Source: a virus
Length of the DNA stretch: 28,233 nucleotides
IMG/VR virus record: IMGVR_UViG_3300031950_000011
Location: 1-28,233 of that record
Reading direction: 5' to 3' (one strand)
How positions within the stretch are numbered: position 1 is the stretch's first letter; the number at the start of each line of letters is the position of its first letter. The notes under the pieces were generated by a model, which saw only the letters and a list, made by a program, of their open reading frames with translations, was not told where the DNA came from and made no database searches. Position numbers and translations under genes: made by a program. Shown one piece after another: positions 3,401 through 27,791 of this stretch.

Positions 3401-4273
3401 TCAGAGACCAATCACACGAAAAATGTCGCGTAAATCAGCGGTGCGGTAGAGCGGGTCGGCCGTGCCAACGATCTCGACCTGCTCGGGCAGCCCGTCCTCG
3501 GGCCGAATCACCTCATCCCACGGCAGCTCACGCCAGAGGAATCGCAGCTCAGCCCGCTTTTGCACCGTCCCATCCGTCATCGCAATACTTGATGTGCGAA
3601 ATGAATCAAACATCACCGTTCGTTCAGGTTCACCAAGGAATCGTCGATCATTGATGTGTTTGATATAGCGACGCCAAATAGGCCACGGCATGAAAGGCAG
3701 CTGCGGGATGCGCACCATCCAGGTTGCCACGCCGATGCGTCGGAAACTCCTGAACGGAACAACTTTCTTTGATACTTTGTAGACAAGTGTCCCCTCGGCG
3801 TAGGTAATCACCTCGCCGTCGTGTTCGATGTCCATTTCGACCCACGGGATCGGGTCCTGCGGGTCGATCTGGATACGCCACCCCGGGTCCTGGTCGGGGA
3901 CGCGGATTTCCTGCACTGAGGGTACGCCGAACTCCACCTCAACCCGCGCGTGGGTGTAATACTCACCGGGGCGGAGGCCGTACTGGTCGCGCACACCAGC
4001 CACCGCAACGCCTTGGGGCGCACCGATCGGGACAATCTGCACCGATCGACAAAACACGGCGGGTAGGTCGGGGTACTGCCACGGCAGCACCCGGACGATC
4101 GTCGTACCGCCCGGCGAGATGACGTATCCCATTGCCTCATTCGCAAATCTGAATGCATCATCCCAACTGACCAAAAAATTGGCGCGCACAACCGGTCCGT
4201 CGCGGTCGAGGCGGGCTTGCGGGGCCGGGTCGCGCAGGACCCGGAATGGCACGGTTGGTTTTGGCATGCTCAT
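3401..4273 (-). CDS. Putative minor tail protein following the tape measure
   Basis: This 290-residue protein starts MSMPKPTVPFRVLRDPAPQ at ATG 4273, one base after the tape measure stop, with GGGGTGA upstream. The sequence is beta-rich with many Trp, Pro and Tyr residues (PWQYPDLPAVF, MPWPIWRRYIKHIN, FLWRELPWDEVI). The slot directly after the tape measure gene usually holds the distal tail protein or a tail hub protein, and the length is close to that of many distal tail proteins. I cannot identify a conserved family motif, so the assignment rests on gene order. No transmembrane segment or catalytic motif is visible. Confidence 0.6.
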   Translation of the reverse strand: MSMPKPTVPFRVLRDPAPQARLDRDGPVVRANFLVSWDDAFRFANEAMGYVISPGGTTIVRVLPWQYPDLPAVFCRSVQIVPIGAPQGVAVAGVRDQYGLRPGEYYTHARVEVEFGVPSVQEIRVPDQDPGWRIQIDPQDPIPWVEMDIEHDGEVITYAEGTLVYKVSKKVVPFRSFRRIGVATWMVRIPQLPFMPWPIWRRYIKHINDRRFLGEPERTVMFDSFRTSSIAMTDGTVQKRAELRFLWRELPWDEVIRPEDGLPEQVEIVGTADPLYRTADLRDIFRVIGL

Positions 4274-8544: not shown

Positions 8545-8994
8545 TCAGGATGTCTCCAGGCCCGAATCCGCCTCACCCCGCAGCACGCGCAGGACACGCT
8601 CGCGCGTCTCGCGCAGCGACCGCCGGAGCCACGGGCGCGGCTCGATCCGCGACGTGCCCAGCTCCAGATAGACCATATGATCCACCGATGAGCCGACCTG
8701 CACGGATAGCCCCTCGTCCGACTCAAAAACTTCGGGAAACAAACTAATCCCGCGGAACGAATCGGTCGAACGAAAGCCGATCGAGGCGCGGCCCTGCCCA
8801 GTGCGCAGCGCAGGCGGGTCACCGGGCGACGACGCCGGCGGGTAGCGCCGCGAGACAAGCCGCTTGGCGTGATTCCCCACCAGTAACGCGGCGCGAATCA
8901 ATCGCTGACGCATCACTTGTCGCGCTACCGTCATCGCTGACAGCTTATCCCAGACCAGCTCTGTTTCGATGATCAGGTCGAGGCCGTCACTCAT
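8545..8994 (-). CDS. HK97 gp10-like head-tail joining protein
   Basis: This 149-residue protein belongs to the HK97 gp10 / minor head-tail protein family. The key pattern is PPALRTGQGRASIGFR in the middle and VGSSVDHMVYLELGTSRIEPRPWLRRSLRE near the end, matching the family's 'p..rTG.L..si' and 'Ya.fqEfGT.....pFl.pal'. It probably joins the neck to the tail. I place the start at ATG 8994, which overlaps the preceding stop as ATGA; a start at 9027 would overlap that gene by more than 30 bases. Confidence 0.85.
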   Translation of the reverse strand: MSDGLDLIIETELVWDKLSAMTVARQVMRQRLIRAALLVGNHAKRLVSRRYPPASSPGDPPALRTGQGRASIGFRSTDSFRGISLFPEVFESDEGLSVQVGSSVDHMVYLELGTSRIEPRPWLRRSLRETRERVLRVLRGEADSGLETS

Positions 8995-23096: not shown

Positions 23097-24230
23097 CTAG
23101 AGCGTTCCGAGTCGTCGGTGCGTCTCAGTGGCGACGTCCGTAGCGGGCGCGTGCCGCCAGAGGGGTAGGCGGCGCAGCTCCGCGAAAACACGCGCGTGTT
23201 CCGCGGTCCAGGGGCGCATGAGAGGGCGCGACGCGGCGAGTGGCGCGCGGCGCGGATGAATCCAGGCAACGGCGCGCTCGGAGCCGGTGGGCAGCGCTCC
23301 CTCAACGACGGCGCGGATCATCCACGACCCGCCGGGTGATTCGACCGCCAGAGAGGCCGTCCACGTCTGGCGCGGGCCTAGCTCGGGGATCGGGTAGCGC
23401 TGGCTCCCGACGGGCGTCTGGACGATGAGCGTGCCCTGACGCAGGGTGCCCGTACCGCCGGTCACGGTGATGGTGACGGGCACCATCTCGCGCGGCGCGG
23501 CGACCGCGGGGGCCTGGATGCCGACCGTGACGCGCGCGGGCTGTTCCTGCGGGGGCGGGGGCGGCGTCGGTGGCTGGGGTACGGGCGGCGATGGGATGAG
23601 CGGCGGAGGCGTGGTCCAGGCGGGCAACACGGTGGCCCAGTCGGCGTCCGAGACGCGGTACGGTGCGGCAGGGTCGATCCCGACGTCGCGGTAGCTGGCG
23701 ATCGGGTGCGCGAGCGGGTACATGATGCTGGCTGGGTCGGACACGTGTCCCGACTGGGGTGTGGTGGGGCGCTGGAGCAGATGCCCGACCTCGTGCATGA
23801 GCACGCGGCCTGGATCGATACCGTGCTGGCGGGCGACGGCGAAAGAAACAGCGGCGATGCCGCCCCGGGGCGCGGACCCTTGGGCCTGCCCGACCATGCC
23901 GGCAGGCACCATCGCATCACTAAGCCATGCATAGGCCCCGCGCGTGACATCGGCCCGAAACTCGACATCGATGACCCCCGGTCGGTCCCAGTGGTCGAGG
24001 ATTTGTTTAATTGTTTGGGCCCATCCGTCGCCCCAGTAGTCCTGGGCGGCGGCGCGGAAAGTCGAGCCGTAGTAGCCGTCCTGGACGGCCCCGACGATGA
24101 GGACGATCGTCGGAGCGACGCGGGATTCGAGCGCATTCTGACGCACGTCAGGGCGTGTGGCGTGATCCGAGCGTGCGGGCGCGACCTCTGCCGCGCGGTC
24201 CGGGGCCCCGTCTGCCGCCGATGACATCAT
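23097..24230 (-). CDS. Zinc-metalloprotease-like protein (HEVGH, Met-turn)
   Basis: This 377-residue protein has a HEVGHLLQRP motif (HExxH at about residues 146-150), a later His (SGHVSDP, 162) and a Met-turn SIMYPL (168-173). This is the pattern of metzincins such as matrixins, although the usual third His at position +10 is absent. The N-terminal domain (about 40-175) is the catalytic domain. After a Pro-rich linker (PPPLIPSPPVPQPPTPPPPP, about 206-230) there is a beta-sandwich-like domain (VTVGIQAPAVAAPREMVPVTITVTGGTG) and a positively charged tail. No signal peptide is seen. ATG 24230 shares a base with the preceding stop (TGATG). A peptidase on virion, cell envelope or lysate is possible. 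Confidence 0.65.
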   Translation of the reverse strand: MMSSAADGAPDRAAEVAPARSDHATRPDVRQNALESRVAPTIVLIVGAVQDGYYGSTFRAAAQDYWGDGWAQTIKQILDHWDRPGVIDVEFRADVTRGAYAWLSDAMVPAGMVGQAQGSAPRGGIAAVSFAVARQHGIDPGRVLMHEVGHLLQRPTTPQSGHVSDPASIMYPLAHPIASYRDVGIDPAAPYRVSDADWATVLPAWTTPPPLIPSPPVPQPPTPPPPPQEQPARVTVGIQAPAVAAPREMVPVTITVTGGTGTLRQGTLIVQTPVGSQRYPIPELGPRQTWTASLAVESPGGSWMIRAVVEGALPTGSERAVAWIHPRRAPLAASRPLMRPWTAEHARVFAELRRLPLWRHAPATDVATETHRRLGTL

Positions 24231-24436
24231 CACCCCCTCTCCGGGTCTAGGGATTCACGAATCATGCGCTCGATCCGGCGCTCATAGCGTCGCAAGGTCC
24301 GATCCGACCATCCGAGGGCCCGCGCTAGATCCTGCCGGCGCATCGCCGCCGTCTGCGGGTGCGAGAGCAGGGCGGCGACGACCACGAGACGATCGTAGCA
24401 GGTCGCGGCGGTCGATGATATGTTTGGTAGCGTCAT
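24230..24436 (-). CDS. Small HTH DNA-binding protein
   Basis: This 68-residue protein contains a helix-turn-helix-like stretch: QDLARALGWSDRTLRRYERRIERMI (about residues 36-60), preceded by a helix (CYDRLVVVAALLSHPQTAAM). It resembles DeoR/MarR-like or small phage regulators. It is the first gene of the long minus-strand run of packaging, head and tail genes, and the leader upstream carries a palindrome (24469-24479). It may regulate that run or its own promoter. AGAGGG precedes ATG 24436. Confidence 0.65.
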   Translation of the reverse strand: MTLPNISSTAATCYDRLVVVAALLSHPQTAAMRRQDLARALGWSDRTLRRYERRIERMIRESLDPERG

Positions 24437-25206: not shown

Positions 25207-25501
25207 TCTCCAGGCATAGCAGCTGGCCGCGCGGTGAGACGCACGTCAGATCCGGCCAGCCGCGCGGGCCGAGTCGTACCACGCGATCGCCGATCGGGAC
25301 CTGGCCGGCGTTGGTCCGGAGGACGAGCCAGCCGCAGGCCGAGAGCGCATCGATAACGGCGCGCTGAATGGCGCGCTCTCGGGGCGGAGCGGGCGGCGAC
25401 GCTGACGGCGCGCGCGGGCTTCTGGTGCGTTTCTCCGATGCGGGCGTCGGTGGACGTCCGATCAGGCGATCGAGCTGGTCAGGCGTGAGGCGGATGGGCA
25501 T
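25043..25501 (-). CDS. VRR-NUC domain nuclease (Holliday-junction resolvase-like)
   Basis: This 152-residue protein has an N-terminal basic region followed by a VRR-NUC domain of PD-(D/E)xK type: ERAIQRAVIDALSACGWLVLRTNAG, then GPRGWPDLTCVSPRGQLLCLEIKRTPRSRP (catalytic D and ExK), RHQEAVHAELRRRGVRVE and a final helix. In phages such nucleases act in recombination or DNA junction processing. It is encoded opposite to its neighbours and lies between the zinc-ribbon gene and the Rad52-like gene. GAGGA precedes ATG 25501. The 3' part overlaps the convergent gene by about 164 bases. Confidence 0.85.
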   Translation of the reverse strand: MPIRLTPDQLDRLIGRPPTPASEKRTRSPRAPSASPPAPPRERAIQRAVIDALSACGWLVLRTNAGQVPIGDRVVRLGPRGWPDLTCVSPRGQLLCLEIKRTPRSRPTRHQEAVHAELRRRGVRVETICSIEEALQVAREVEADAARTDPAR

Positions 25502-25511
25502 GAGAAATCCT

Positions 25512-25541
25512 CTGGCATCCGGCGGGCAGATGTGCTATACT
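25512..25541 (+). promoter_or_regulatory. Extended -10 promoter for recombination/replication genes
   Basis: TGCTATACT (25533-25541) is an extended -10 with perfect TATACT hexamer. A weak -35 CTGGCA lies 18 bases upstream (25512-25517). It points to the Rad52-like gene starting at 25712, with a transcribed leader containing the twin-hairpin element. The promoter starts within the first codons of the divergent nuclease gene's leader. Confidence 0.6.
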
Positions 25542-25582
25542 ACCATTGTGCGGTGGTTGGCCGCTCAAGCCACGTGGAGTAA

Positions 25583-25659
25583 CCGCGGGGGGACGAACAC
25601 TTGCCTCCACACCCCTCGCGGGGCCAGGGATTGTTGCTCCGATCCCTGGCCGCCTTTTT
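25583..25659 (+). repeat. Twin-hairpin element, copy 1 (terminator/attenuator)
   Basis: A first hairpin pairs CCGCG+GGGG (25583-25591) with CCCC+CGCGG (25612-25621, one bulged T). It is followed directly by GGCCAGGGAT (25622-25631) / ATCCCTGGCC (25642-25651), a perfect 10-bp stem with a 10-base loop, then GCC and TTTTT (25655-25659). The second hairpin has the form of a rho-independent terminator. It lies between the promoter at 25536 and the Rad52-like gene, so it could act as an attenuator. A second copy is at 26507-26580. Confidence 0.8.
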
Positions 25660-25711
25660 CCATTCGTGATTGGCTGGTGCGTTCGCCGTCCGTACATACC
25701 CCGGAGGTATG

Positions 25712-26506
25712 ATGACACGCTTTCCTGACTTGTTCGCGGCGCTGGCCGCACCGTTCGACGCACGGGAAATCAAAACCCGTCCGCAGGGCAAGCAGCGGCT
25801 GTCCTACGTGACGGCCCGCACGGTGATGAACCGCTTGGATGAAGTGGTCGGCCCGGAAAACTGGTGGGACGACTACGAACAGAATGAAGAGTCGGTGGTG
25901 TGCCGCTTGACCTTGCGGCTGCCTGACGGCACGACCGTGACAAAGTGCGACGCTGGCGGCCACGCGGGCATGGCCGACACGGGCGACGACGAGAAGTCGG
26001 CCTACTCGGACGCCTTCAAGCGGGCCGCGGTCAAGTTCGGGGTGGGGCGTCACTTATACGGCGATGGAATCCCCCGGCTACGGGGGCACCGGGCACGATC
26101 GCCGGCGGAGGCCGCGCCCGCGGCGGAGTCAGCGGCGGCGGCGGCAGCGGCCACGCAATACACGATCGAGGAGGCGCGGCGGCTAGATGAGGCCGCCGTG
26201 GCGCGGCAGTGCGCCCAGTGGATCCAGTGGGCGGACGAGACCAATGCGCTGGTGCGCCAGCGGTTTCCGCACTTGACGCCGCTGCAAAGGTCCGCGGCGA
26301 CCGTGACGATGGAACATGCGGTCGTTTCGCTGTATGACGCATATTGCCGCTCGGGCCGCGTGCCTGATACGCCACACTGGGATGACCGTATCCGGCTCGC
26401 TACGGTTGTTGCCGCCAGCCACGACCATGCCGACTGGCTGCGCAAACTGCAGCAGCGTATGCTGGACACCATTGCCAGCGTGTATTTGCCGCCGGCCAAA
26501 AAGTAA
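25712..26506 (+). CDS. Rad52/Sak-like single-strand annealing protein
   Basis: This 264-residue protein belongs to the Rad52/22 annealing family used by phages for recombination. The hallmark block is ARTVMNRLDEVVGPENWWDDYEQ, then CDAGGHAG and DEKSAYSDAFKRAAVKFGVGRHLYGDG (about residues 82-118), which are diagnostic. The second half is helical and Ala/Glu-rich (AEAAPAAESAAAAAAATQY), with further helices (AQWIQWADETNALVRQR). I chose ATG 25712; ATG 25709 is also in frame and the GGAGG at 25703-25707 leaves four bases to 25712. It is the first gene of the plus-strand cluster with Gp157-like, sigma-like and initiator-like proteins. Confidence 0.9.
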   Translation: MTRFPDLFAALAAPFDAREIKTRPQGKQRLSYVTARTVMNRLDEVVGPENWWDDYEQNEESVVCRLTLRLPDGTTVTKCDAGGHAGMADTGDDEKSAYSDAFKRAAVKFGVGRHLYGDGIPRLRGHRARSPAEAAPAAESAAAAAAATQYTIEEARRLDEAAVARQCAQWIQWADETNALVRQRFPHLTPLQRSAATVTMEHAVVSLYDAYCRSGRVPDTPHWDDRIRLATVVAASHDHADWLRKLQQRMLDTIASVYLPPAKK

Positions 26507-26580
26507 CCGCGGGGGCACGAGCGCCAATCACACCCCGCGGGGCCAGGGATCGCCGCTCTCGATCCCTGGCCGCCCCCTTT
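26507..26580 (+). repeat. Twin-hairpin element, copy 2 (terminator)
   Basis: Starts immediately after the TAA of the Rad52-like gene. Hairpin one: CCGCGGGG (26507-26514) with CCCCGCGG (26533-26540). Hairpin two: GGCCAGGGATC (26541-26551) with GATCCCTGGCC (26561-26571), 11 bp and nine-base loop, then GCCCCC and TTT (26578-26580). Loops differ between copies but stems are conserved. It is probably a terminator after the annealing gene or an RNA structure that tunes read-through into the Gp157-like gene. The rest of the 26581-26659 interval is a short AT-richer leader with GGAGG before ATG 26660. Confidence 0.8.
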
Positions 26581-26659
26581 CATTCCGTTCCGCCCTTTTT
26601 TGACCTGTTTCATCTAGACCTTTTCACATTGGCGCTTATTCGCTTCTACGGAGGTTATT

Positions 26660-27169
26660 ATGACGCTTTACGAGGTAAGCAGCGAGATGGCGGCGATTTT
26701 GGCCGCGATCGATGAGACTGGTGGTGAGGTCACCGATGAGGTGTCGGGGCAGCTCGATCGGCTGGCGGAGTCGCTACGGGAGCGGGTCGGCGCGTGCGTG
26801 CGCGCGATTCAGGGCATCGAGGCGGCAGCGGCGGCGGCGCAGGCGGAGTCGGAGCGTCTGGCGCAGTTGGCGACGCGCCGCCTGCGGCAGGCCGAGAGCC
26901 TGCGTGAGTACGTGATGCGGTGTCTCGACGCGACCGGCACGACGCGGCTAGACACGGACATTGCGCAGGTGTCTGTCCGCACGAACCCGCCGCGGGTCGA
27001 GGTGGACCCGCAAGACGTCACGGTGTGGCCCGCGGAATACATCGTCGTGACGCCCCGCGAGCCGGACATCAGGCCAAATCGGGCCGCCCTGCTGGCGGCT
27101 CACCGTGAGGGCCGGGAGCTGCCCGTCGGGGTGCGGGTCGTCCAGGGGCGGCGACTGGTTATCCGCTAG
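26660..27169 (+). CDS. Gp157-like siphovirus protein
   Basis: This 169-residue protein matches the pattern of the siphovirus Gp157 family: MTLYEVSSEMAAILAAIDETGGEVTDEVSGQLDRLAESL with long helices (VGACVRAIQGIEAAAAAAQAESERLAQLATRRLRQAESLREYVMRCLDATGTTRL) and a C-terminal strand segment 'DIAQVSVRTNPPRVEVDPQDVTVWPAEYIV...PNRAALLAAHREGRELPVGVRVVQGRRLVIR'. The coiled-coil first half and the strand-turn 'qVsvRtNPPrV' block are typical. Members are found near recombination genes, and function is debated (resistance to other phages has been suggested in streptococcal phage). GGAGG lies five bases before ATG. Confidence 0.85.
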   Translation: MTLYEVSSEMAAILAAIDETGGEVTDEVSGQLDRLAESLRERVGACVRAIQGIEAAAAAAQAESERLAQLATRRLRQAESLREYVMRCLDATGTTRLDTDIAQVSVRTNPPRVEVDPQDVTVWPAEYIVVTPREPDIRPNRAALLAAHREGRELPVGVRVVQGRRLVIR

Positions 27170-27185: not shown

Positions 27186-27791
27186 ATGAAAAGGTTTAAA
27201 TCCCTTAGGGCGCTCGATCAGTGGACGATTGAGCGCCTATCCGCTTGGCGTGCCGGCGACCGGGCCGCCGGCGATGAGGTGGTGCGCCAGTACACCCAGC
27301 TGGCGCACTATTTCTTGCTGCGCCATTTACGGTGGCCATCCGTCTTACGCCAGTATGAGGACCTATGCGTTGAGGTCGTACACGACACGCTCGCCTATGC
27401 GATGGCAAGCTACGACCCGTCGCGCGGGAGTTTTGGGTACCTACTTCTTCTTTCGGTGCAGCTGAAAGCAAGAAAAATCGTCTATGAATCAAGGCGTCAC
27501 GCCAAGCAAAAGCGGATACCGGACGGGTACGATCCGCCGTGGTCGCCCCGCGACGGCGTGTCTGACATCGGTCTCATCCACGATGCGATCCGACGTGCGG
27601 CGCGGACGCCATTTGAGCGATGGTACGCCGAGCACATCATCGCCGGCGGCGACTGGCAGCCCGCGGCGGTCGCCCGGATCGTAGGCGAGCCGCGTAAGCG
27701 TATCGCGGGACGGATCGACCGCTTTCGCTTACGCATCGCGGAAGCGTTACGCTCCAATGATCTCGGTATTGATGACTTTCTCGACGGATAA
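27186..27791 (+). CDS. Sigma-factor-like protein
   Basis: This 201-residue protein looks like a divergent sigma70-type factor. Residues about 30-95 (VVRQYTQLAHYFLLRHLRWPSVLRQYEDLCVEVVHDTLAYAMASYDPSRGSFGYLLLLSVQLKARKIVYESRRHAKQKR) follow the region 2 layout: two helices, 'dlvqE...g...a...fdp.rg.F..Y...'. Residues about 145-190 (DWQPAAVARIVGEPRKRIAGRIDRFRLRIAEAL) have the HTH layout of region 4. GGAG lies six bases before ATG 27186. It may direct late or early phage transcription, or be a DNA-binding protein that adopted the fold. The match is by pattern, without database support. Confidence 0.65.
   Translation: MKRFKSLRALDQWTIERLSAWRAGDRAAGDEVVRQYTQLAHYFLLRHLRWPSVLRQYEDLCVEVVHDTLAYAMASYDPSRGSFGYLLLLSVQLKARKIVYESRRHAKQKRIPDGYDPPWSPRDGVSDIGLIHDAIRRAARTPFERWYAEHIIAGGDWQPAAVARIVGEPRKRIAGRIDRFRLRIAEALRSNDLGIDDFLDG

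Follow-up and report, generated by a model that had tools for sequence, protein, structure and literature searches.

A duplicated double-hairpin RNA element flanking the annealing-protein gene of an uncultured phage, with a probable role in ordinary transcription or mRNA control

Two similar stretches of DNA, each able to form a pair of adjoining hairpins as RNA, lie on either side of a gene for a single-strand annealing protein in the genome of an uncultured phage. The question that this locus raises is whether the repeated double hairpin is a control RNA and, if so, at which step of gene expression it would act. The window, by which we mean the whole stretch of DNA analysed, is the IMG/VR record IMGVR_UViG_3300031950_000011 (28,233 bases; classed as linear, possibly a fragment; GC 66%, 0.659).

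Family-matched genes occupy the − strand up to position 25501 and the + strand from position 25709. The first + strand gene, which an earlier sequence-only reading had called Rad52-like and placed between the two copies, is identified as of the Erf/Rad52 type by both Pfam and PHROG (Table 1); GGAGG at positions 25703–25707 stands upstream of it, and its stop codon is at positions 26504–26506. Behind the Gp157-like gene follows an ORF at 27186–27791 with no family match in Pfam or PHROG, which by appearance only may encode a sigma-factor-type protein. The predicted promoter in Table 1 is the sole match in 4.2 kb, where shuffled sequences lead one to expect 0.4 ± 0.6. The first copy (A) had been placed in a leader after a promoter, and its position fits this description, the basis being that single predicted promoter, from which we infer that copy A is transcribed.

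Table 1. Coordinates of the double-hairpin copies and of the neighbouring features in the window.
Feature	Position	Strand	Basis
Predicted sigma-70-type promoter, CTGGCA-18-TATACT, TG before −10	25512..25541	+	consensus scan
Copy A of the double-hairpin element, from AGTAAC start to CATTC end	25578..25665	+	
Copy A, hairpin H1: 10 pairs including one G-U, 19-nt loop	25583..25621	+	fold
Copy A, hairpin H2: 12 pairs around a 6-nt loop, then TTTTT at 25655–25659	25622..25651	+	
Erf/Rad52-type single-strand annealing protein gene	25709..26506	+	Pfam PF04098, E 8.2e-15; PHROG 1097, E 1.5e-23
Copy B of the double-hairpin element; its AGTAAC includes the stop codon of the annealing gene	26502..26585	+	
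Copy B, hairpin H1: 8 pairs	26507..26540	+	fold
Copy B, hairpin H2: 12 pairs, 7-nt loop; then GCCCCCTTTC, no T-run	26541..26571	+	
Next gene, Siphovirus Gp157 / Gam-like family	26660..27169	+	PF05565, E 7.5e-26; phrog_253, E 1.2e-24

The two copies lie in the same orientation around the annealing gene and match each other at the DNA level with E 9.7e-15 and 79% identity. The element is 80–90 bases long, with a conserved stretch running from AGTAAC through H1 and H2 to CATTC in both copies. As had been described, AGTAACCGCGGGG opens each copy, H1 abuts H2 with zero unpaired bases between the predicted stems, and copy B follows the gene directly. H1 of copy B starts at the first base past the stop codon. 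When a covariance model of A and B is run on the window, these two are its sole full-length matches (102 and 97 bits), followed at 20 bits by the opposite strand of H2. Other parts of the description hold for one copy. The CCGCGGGG/CCCCGCGG stem is exact in copy B, whereas the corresponding arms of copy A, CCGCGGGGGG/CCCCTCGCGG, are predicted to form 10 pairs, one of them G-U, making the bulge said to be kept in the stems unnecessary. A T-run after H2 is present in copy A, where GCC is followed by TTTTT from the fourth base past the stem, but not in copy B. The H2 loops of both copies contain GCTC, which we take to resemble the boxA core of the lambda nut sites, as a lead only.

Differences between the copies are concentrated in the loops: 2 of 40 stem positions differ against 10 of 24 loop positions, gap columns excluded (Fisher p 0.0005), and 2 of 10 flanking columns. 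Both stem changes retain pairing as G-U wobbles, which is the case solely for the + strand RNA. Standard pairs fill all 40 stem cells, a share that falls to 39–56% when the 3' partners are shifted by 1–3 columns. The unpaired bases ACGA, CACA and GCTC are also kept in both copies. There is no compensatory double change among the stem pairs of A and B; no pair is altered on both sides, and strict covariation is thus absent. The proposal that the predicted structure is under selection therefore gains from the contrast between stems and loops and from the pairing-compatible changes, but our support for it is modest, because there are two sequences and the stems were picked from these same two.

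The same comparison bears on a reading at the level of DNA, according to which the copies would be palindromic operators bound by a repressor of the phage, or direct repeats that remained when the annealing gene was inserted as a cassette. Conserved arms with free spacers and direct repeats around exactly one gene would suit it, as would a helix-turn-helix-like ORF at 24230–24436 (Pfam E 0.0006, under the family cut-off). However, the spacers vary in length, the H1 loop by 5 columns and the H2 loop by 1, and an operator would lose its phasing through such variation; the annealing gene has the GC content of the window (0.66 and 0.659), which does not suit a cassette; and the stem changes preserve pairing in the + strand RNA only. 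We regard an action as DNA as improbable. Integron attC sites end in RYYYAAC ... GTTRRRY. The element has AGTAAC at its 5' end, but by eye GTTRRRY is absent near its 3' end, and this class was rejected.

Calculated folds of the element are very stable. The minimum free energies are −44.7 kcal/mol for copy A and −44.1 kcal/mol for copy B (z −4.71 and −4.41), and none of 200 dinucleotide shuffles matches the fold energy of either copy; the opposite strands fold less exceptionally, with z −3.2 (A) and −2.6 (B). It should be noted, however, that out of 18,774 windows of 75 nt, 71 have a better fold than A and 84 a better one than B, and that the genome has seven stems of at least 12 pairs where shuffles give 2.5 ± 1.8. 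Stable folds are common in this genome of 66% GC; what stands out is the duplication more than the stability. A further helix, P0, could close either copy by pairing the purines ahead of H1 with the U-run; we do not claim it, since a column shuffle attains it in 13% of trials.

With regard to termination, the picture is mixed. The GC-rich 12-pair H2, its place in the leader and at the gene end, and the U-run in copy A are shared with the intrinsic (Rho-independent) terminators of phages. Unlike these, the element has its U-run three bases late in copy A and lacks it in copy B, so that in neither does a U-tract stand right after the stem, and it carries the additional abutting H1. A loose scan lists copy A among three terminator-like sites in 4.2 kb, where 1.5 ± 1.2 are expected by chance, and does not pick up copy B. 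A stricter terminator score is negative for both A and B. Taken together, these data point weakly to simple termination at the two copies.

The suggestion of attenuation by an RNA switch did not hold up in the calculations. H2 contributes −22.6 kcal/mol in copy A and −23.6 kcal/mol in copy B, and the best fold without H2 is worse by 14.8 (A) and 14.0 (B) kcal/mol. With the nearest competing fold about 14 kcal/mol away, a bistable attenuator is unsupported, and a classical attenuator with two exclusive folds was rejected on the same ground, a competing antiterminator fold not being found in A or B. In the lambda pR'-tR' type of arrangement, a terminator in the leader is read through by means of an antiterminator. 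The order of promoter, hairpin with T-run and genes resembles this plan; unlike lambda, no antiterminator gene was identified in the window.

A survey of repeated hairpins in 256 sequences (255 loci and the window, 3.15 Mb) gave 13 cases with the same stem, several of them suggestive of repetitive or coding DNA. Leaving the window aside, the case that stands out most is the phage contig L010, whose terminase is the closest to that of the phage by identity (57%). It has two intergenic hairpins (4238–4271 and 8634–8669) that share the upstream TTGGTTGGCTCGTGATA. Like A and B, they are two copies between genes with a near-identical stem, differing loops and wobble-type changes; unlike the window element, each is a single hairpin of unrelated sequence with a strong T-run, and both are positive in the stricter terminator score. 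The duplicated-hairpin pattern thus has a precedent in L010, and this pair indicates that kept stems with free loops occur in seemingly ordinary duplicated terminators too. Elsewhere in the survey material, the phage contig L060 has a repeated GGCGGGTTACGC hairpin (446–474 and 3605–3633) that resembles bacterial repetitive palindromes.

On this basis, the explanation we favour, with a probability of roughly 0.5, is that of a duplicated terminator-like or mRNA-boundary cis element bracketing the transcription unit of the annealing gene. H2 would be the core of a terminator-like hairpin, and H1 would stack on it and keep the pair rigid. In the leader, copy A with its offset U-run would let only a fraction of transcripts pass; after the gene, copy B, which has no U-run, would serve to mark or shield the end of the mRNA and to reduce expression of the genes behind. 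Overall, we infer that transcripts are ended, paused or stabilised by the element. The stronger z-scores of the + strand, the kept stems with diverged loops, the leader and gene-end positions and the L010 pair all argue for a boundary element, as do gene-end hairpins without T-runs, seen also in phage loci whose annealing genes are related. The offset or absent T-run, the negative score and the number of sites expected by chance argue against this explanation; the stems are also nearer to identity in sequence than a terminator needs, yet this is equally so in L010.

A narrower version leaves out termination, so that the element would act in mRNA stability or processing, with hairpins at the 5' and 3' ends of the annealing gene's message that keep exonucleases out or specify a cut of the RNase III type. 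Stably folded copies at both ends of one gene would be expected of such an element, and copy B, with no U-run and an H1 that begins at the base past the stop codon, would serve it well, but the U-run of copy A would then be superfluous. We consider this version unlikely, although it comes next after the favoured explanation.

Relatives of the element were sought by several routes. None of 4227 Rfam families reached its gathering score in the window, and two sub-threshold matches within 25480–26700 (E up to 5) are regarded as chance. Model R2 gave nothing better than E 0.07 on 260 fetched loci (90 + 27 + 72 + 66 + 5), the matches in L151 (E 5.2), L205 (E 0.36) and L264 (E 0.9) being weak ones by score alone. 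It found no relative on 18 whole virus records (best E 0.9) and none at E 0.1 in the 392 genomes searched from a single phylum, that of a Planctomycetales MAG, the genome search having stricter filters and at most 12 candidates scored per genome among the matches shown. By the same route, R2 recovers both copies on the window's own record. DNA similarity searches of phages and plasmids did not find a related element, and searches of viral contigs with the annealing, terminase and Gp157-like proteins yielded no confirmable relatives. Exact patterns were also run on the viral contigs: the H2 arms hit 2 contigs with unrelated hairpins, the start and end of H1 hit 5 contigs in which the structure is not formed, and the H1/H2 junction had no match. 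The portions available to us of the literature on repeated or tandem phage hairpin terminators contain nothing about the element. It should be noted that the collections may omit this genome or very near records, so that absence from them is no proof of uniqueness.

The terminase alignment comprised 80 viral and 80 genome loci, which otherwise share little with the window. The terminase has its best full-length relative in the Planctomycetales MAG (L090), for which reason a host among the Planctomycetota was considered; distant relatives of the capsid protein occur in 23 of the 392 genomes of that phylum, and the annealing protein in none of the 392. With a shorter query from the annealing protein, 75 loci were obtained. 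The 12 closest (L170–L181) have 45–74% identity over the full protein and 63–78% over the conserved stretch of the query, and in all 12 the double hairpin is absent beside the annealing gene, indicating that the element is not tied to this gene family. One candidate among them, L171 4520–4596 (23 bits, E 0.07), contains a real H2-like hairpin, but it was rejected, with two mismatches among the pairs of its H1 and a place ahead of a different ORF. A GGGCTCGGGCTTGGGCT repeat tract lies directly 3' of the annealing gene of L173 (5750–5950). The lack of H1 in relatives had been named beforehand as part of what would tell against the sequence-only reading, and this part was observed: H1 shows no conservation next to annealing genes of related loci.

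A further possibility is suggested by phage HK022, whose put RNAs antiterminate in cis through the zinc-binding domain of RNA polymerase. By analogy, the element would bind RNA polymerase during elongation, or a phage factor, so as to cause read-through of downstream terminators, the leader copy acting first and the second copy re-arming the polymerase after the first gene. According to the published description, the put RNAs are about 70 nt long and contain two stem-loops; there are two copies, related to each other and transcribed from early promoters, of which one lies close to its promoter and the other about 270 nt down; a G separates the stems, stem I is bulged and stem II is mismatched (PMC9378689). 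A and B resemble putL and putR in having two adjacent stem-loops within 75–79 nt and in being two related copies, one of them near a promoter, and the kept unpaired ACGA, CACA and GCTC would also fit; they differ in that their stems abut without the G and form near-perfect helices, whereas the put stems are interrupted. Copy A precedes a U-run, and no sequence likeness was seen. The presumed put stretches, assigned in HK022 by their mutual similarity, are far less stable, at −0.28 and −0.24 kcal/mol per nt, where the window copies have −0.57 and −0.59. R2 does not match these stretches in HK022 24000–40751; the strongest match in that region (20 bits, E 0.016) falls between the genes for Q and holin. 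We therefore view a put-like antiterminator as doubtful, somewhat more so than an mRNA-stability element. The bolder form of this idea, an orphan two-hairpin RNA of new sequence and fold that lies on both sides of the gene at the head of the rightward operon and acts on RNA polymerase as put does, keeping it resistant to terminators, seems to us a long shot.

Taken together, the comparison of mechanisms places the boundary or terminator-like explanation first, followed by mRNA stability, put-like antitermination and a DNA-level role, in that order. We conclude that the element is real, that the searches above found no relatives of it, and that its function is probably ordinary transcription or mRNA control.

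Mapped transcription-control RNAs are almost lacking for phages outside a few model systems, and this duplicated pair of hairpins, with its conserved stems, offers a compact candidate for such an RNA that can be tested. If it is an antiterminator, protein-free antitermination would extend past the put sites of lambdoid phages; as a terminator, it would be further evidence of phages reusing one terminator several times.
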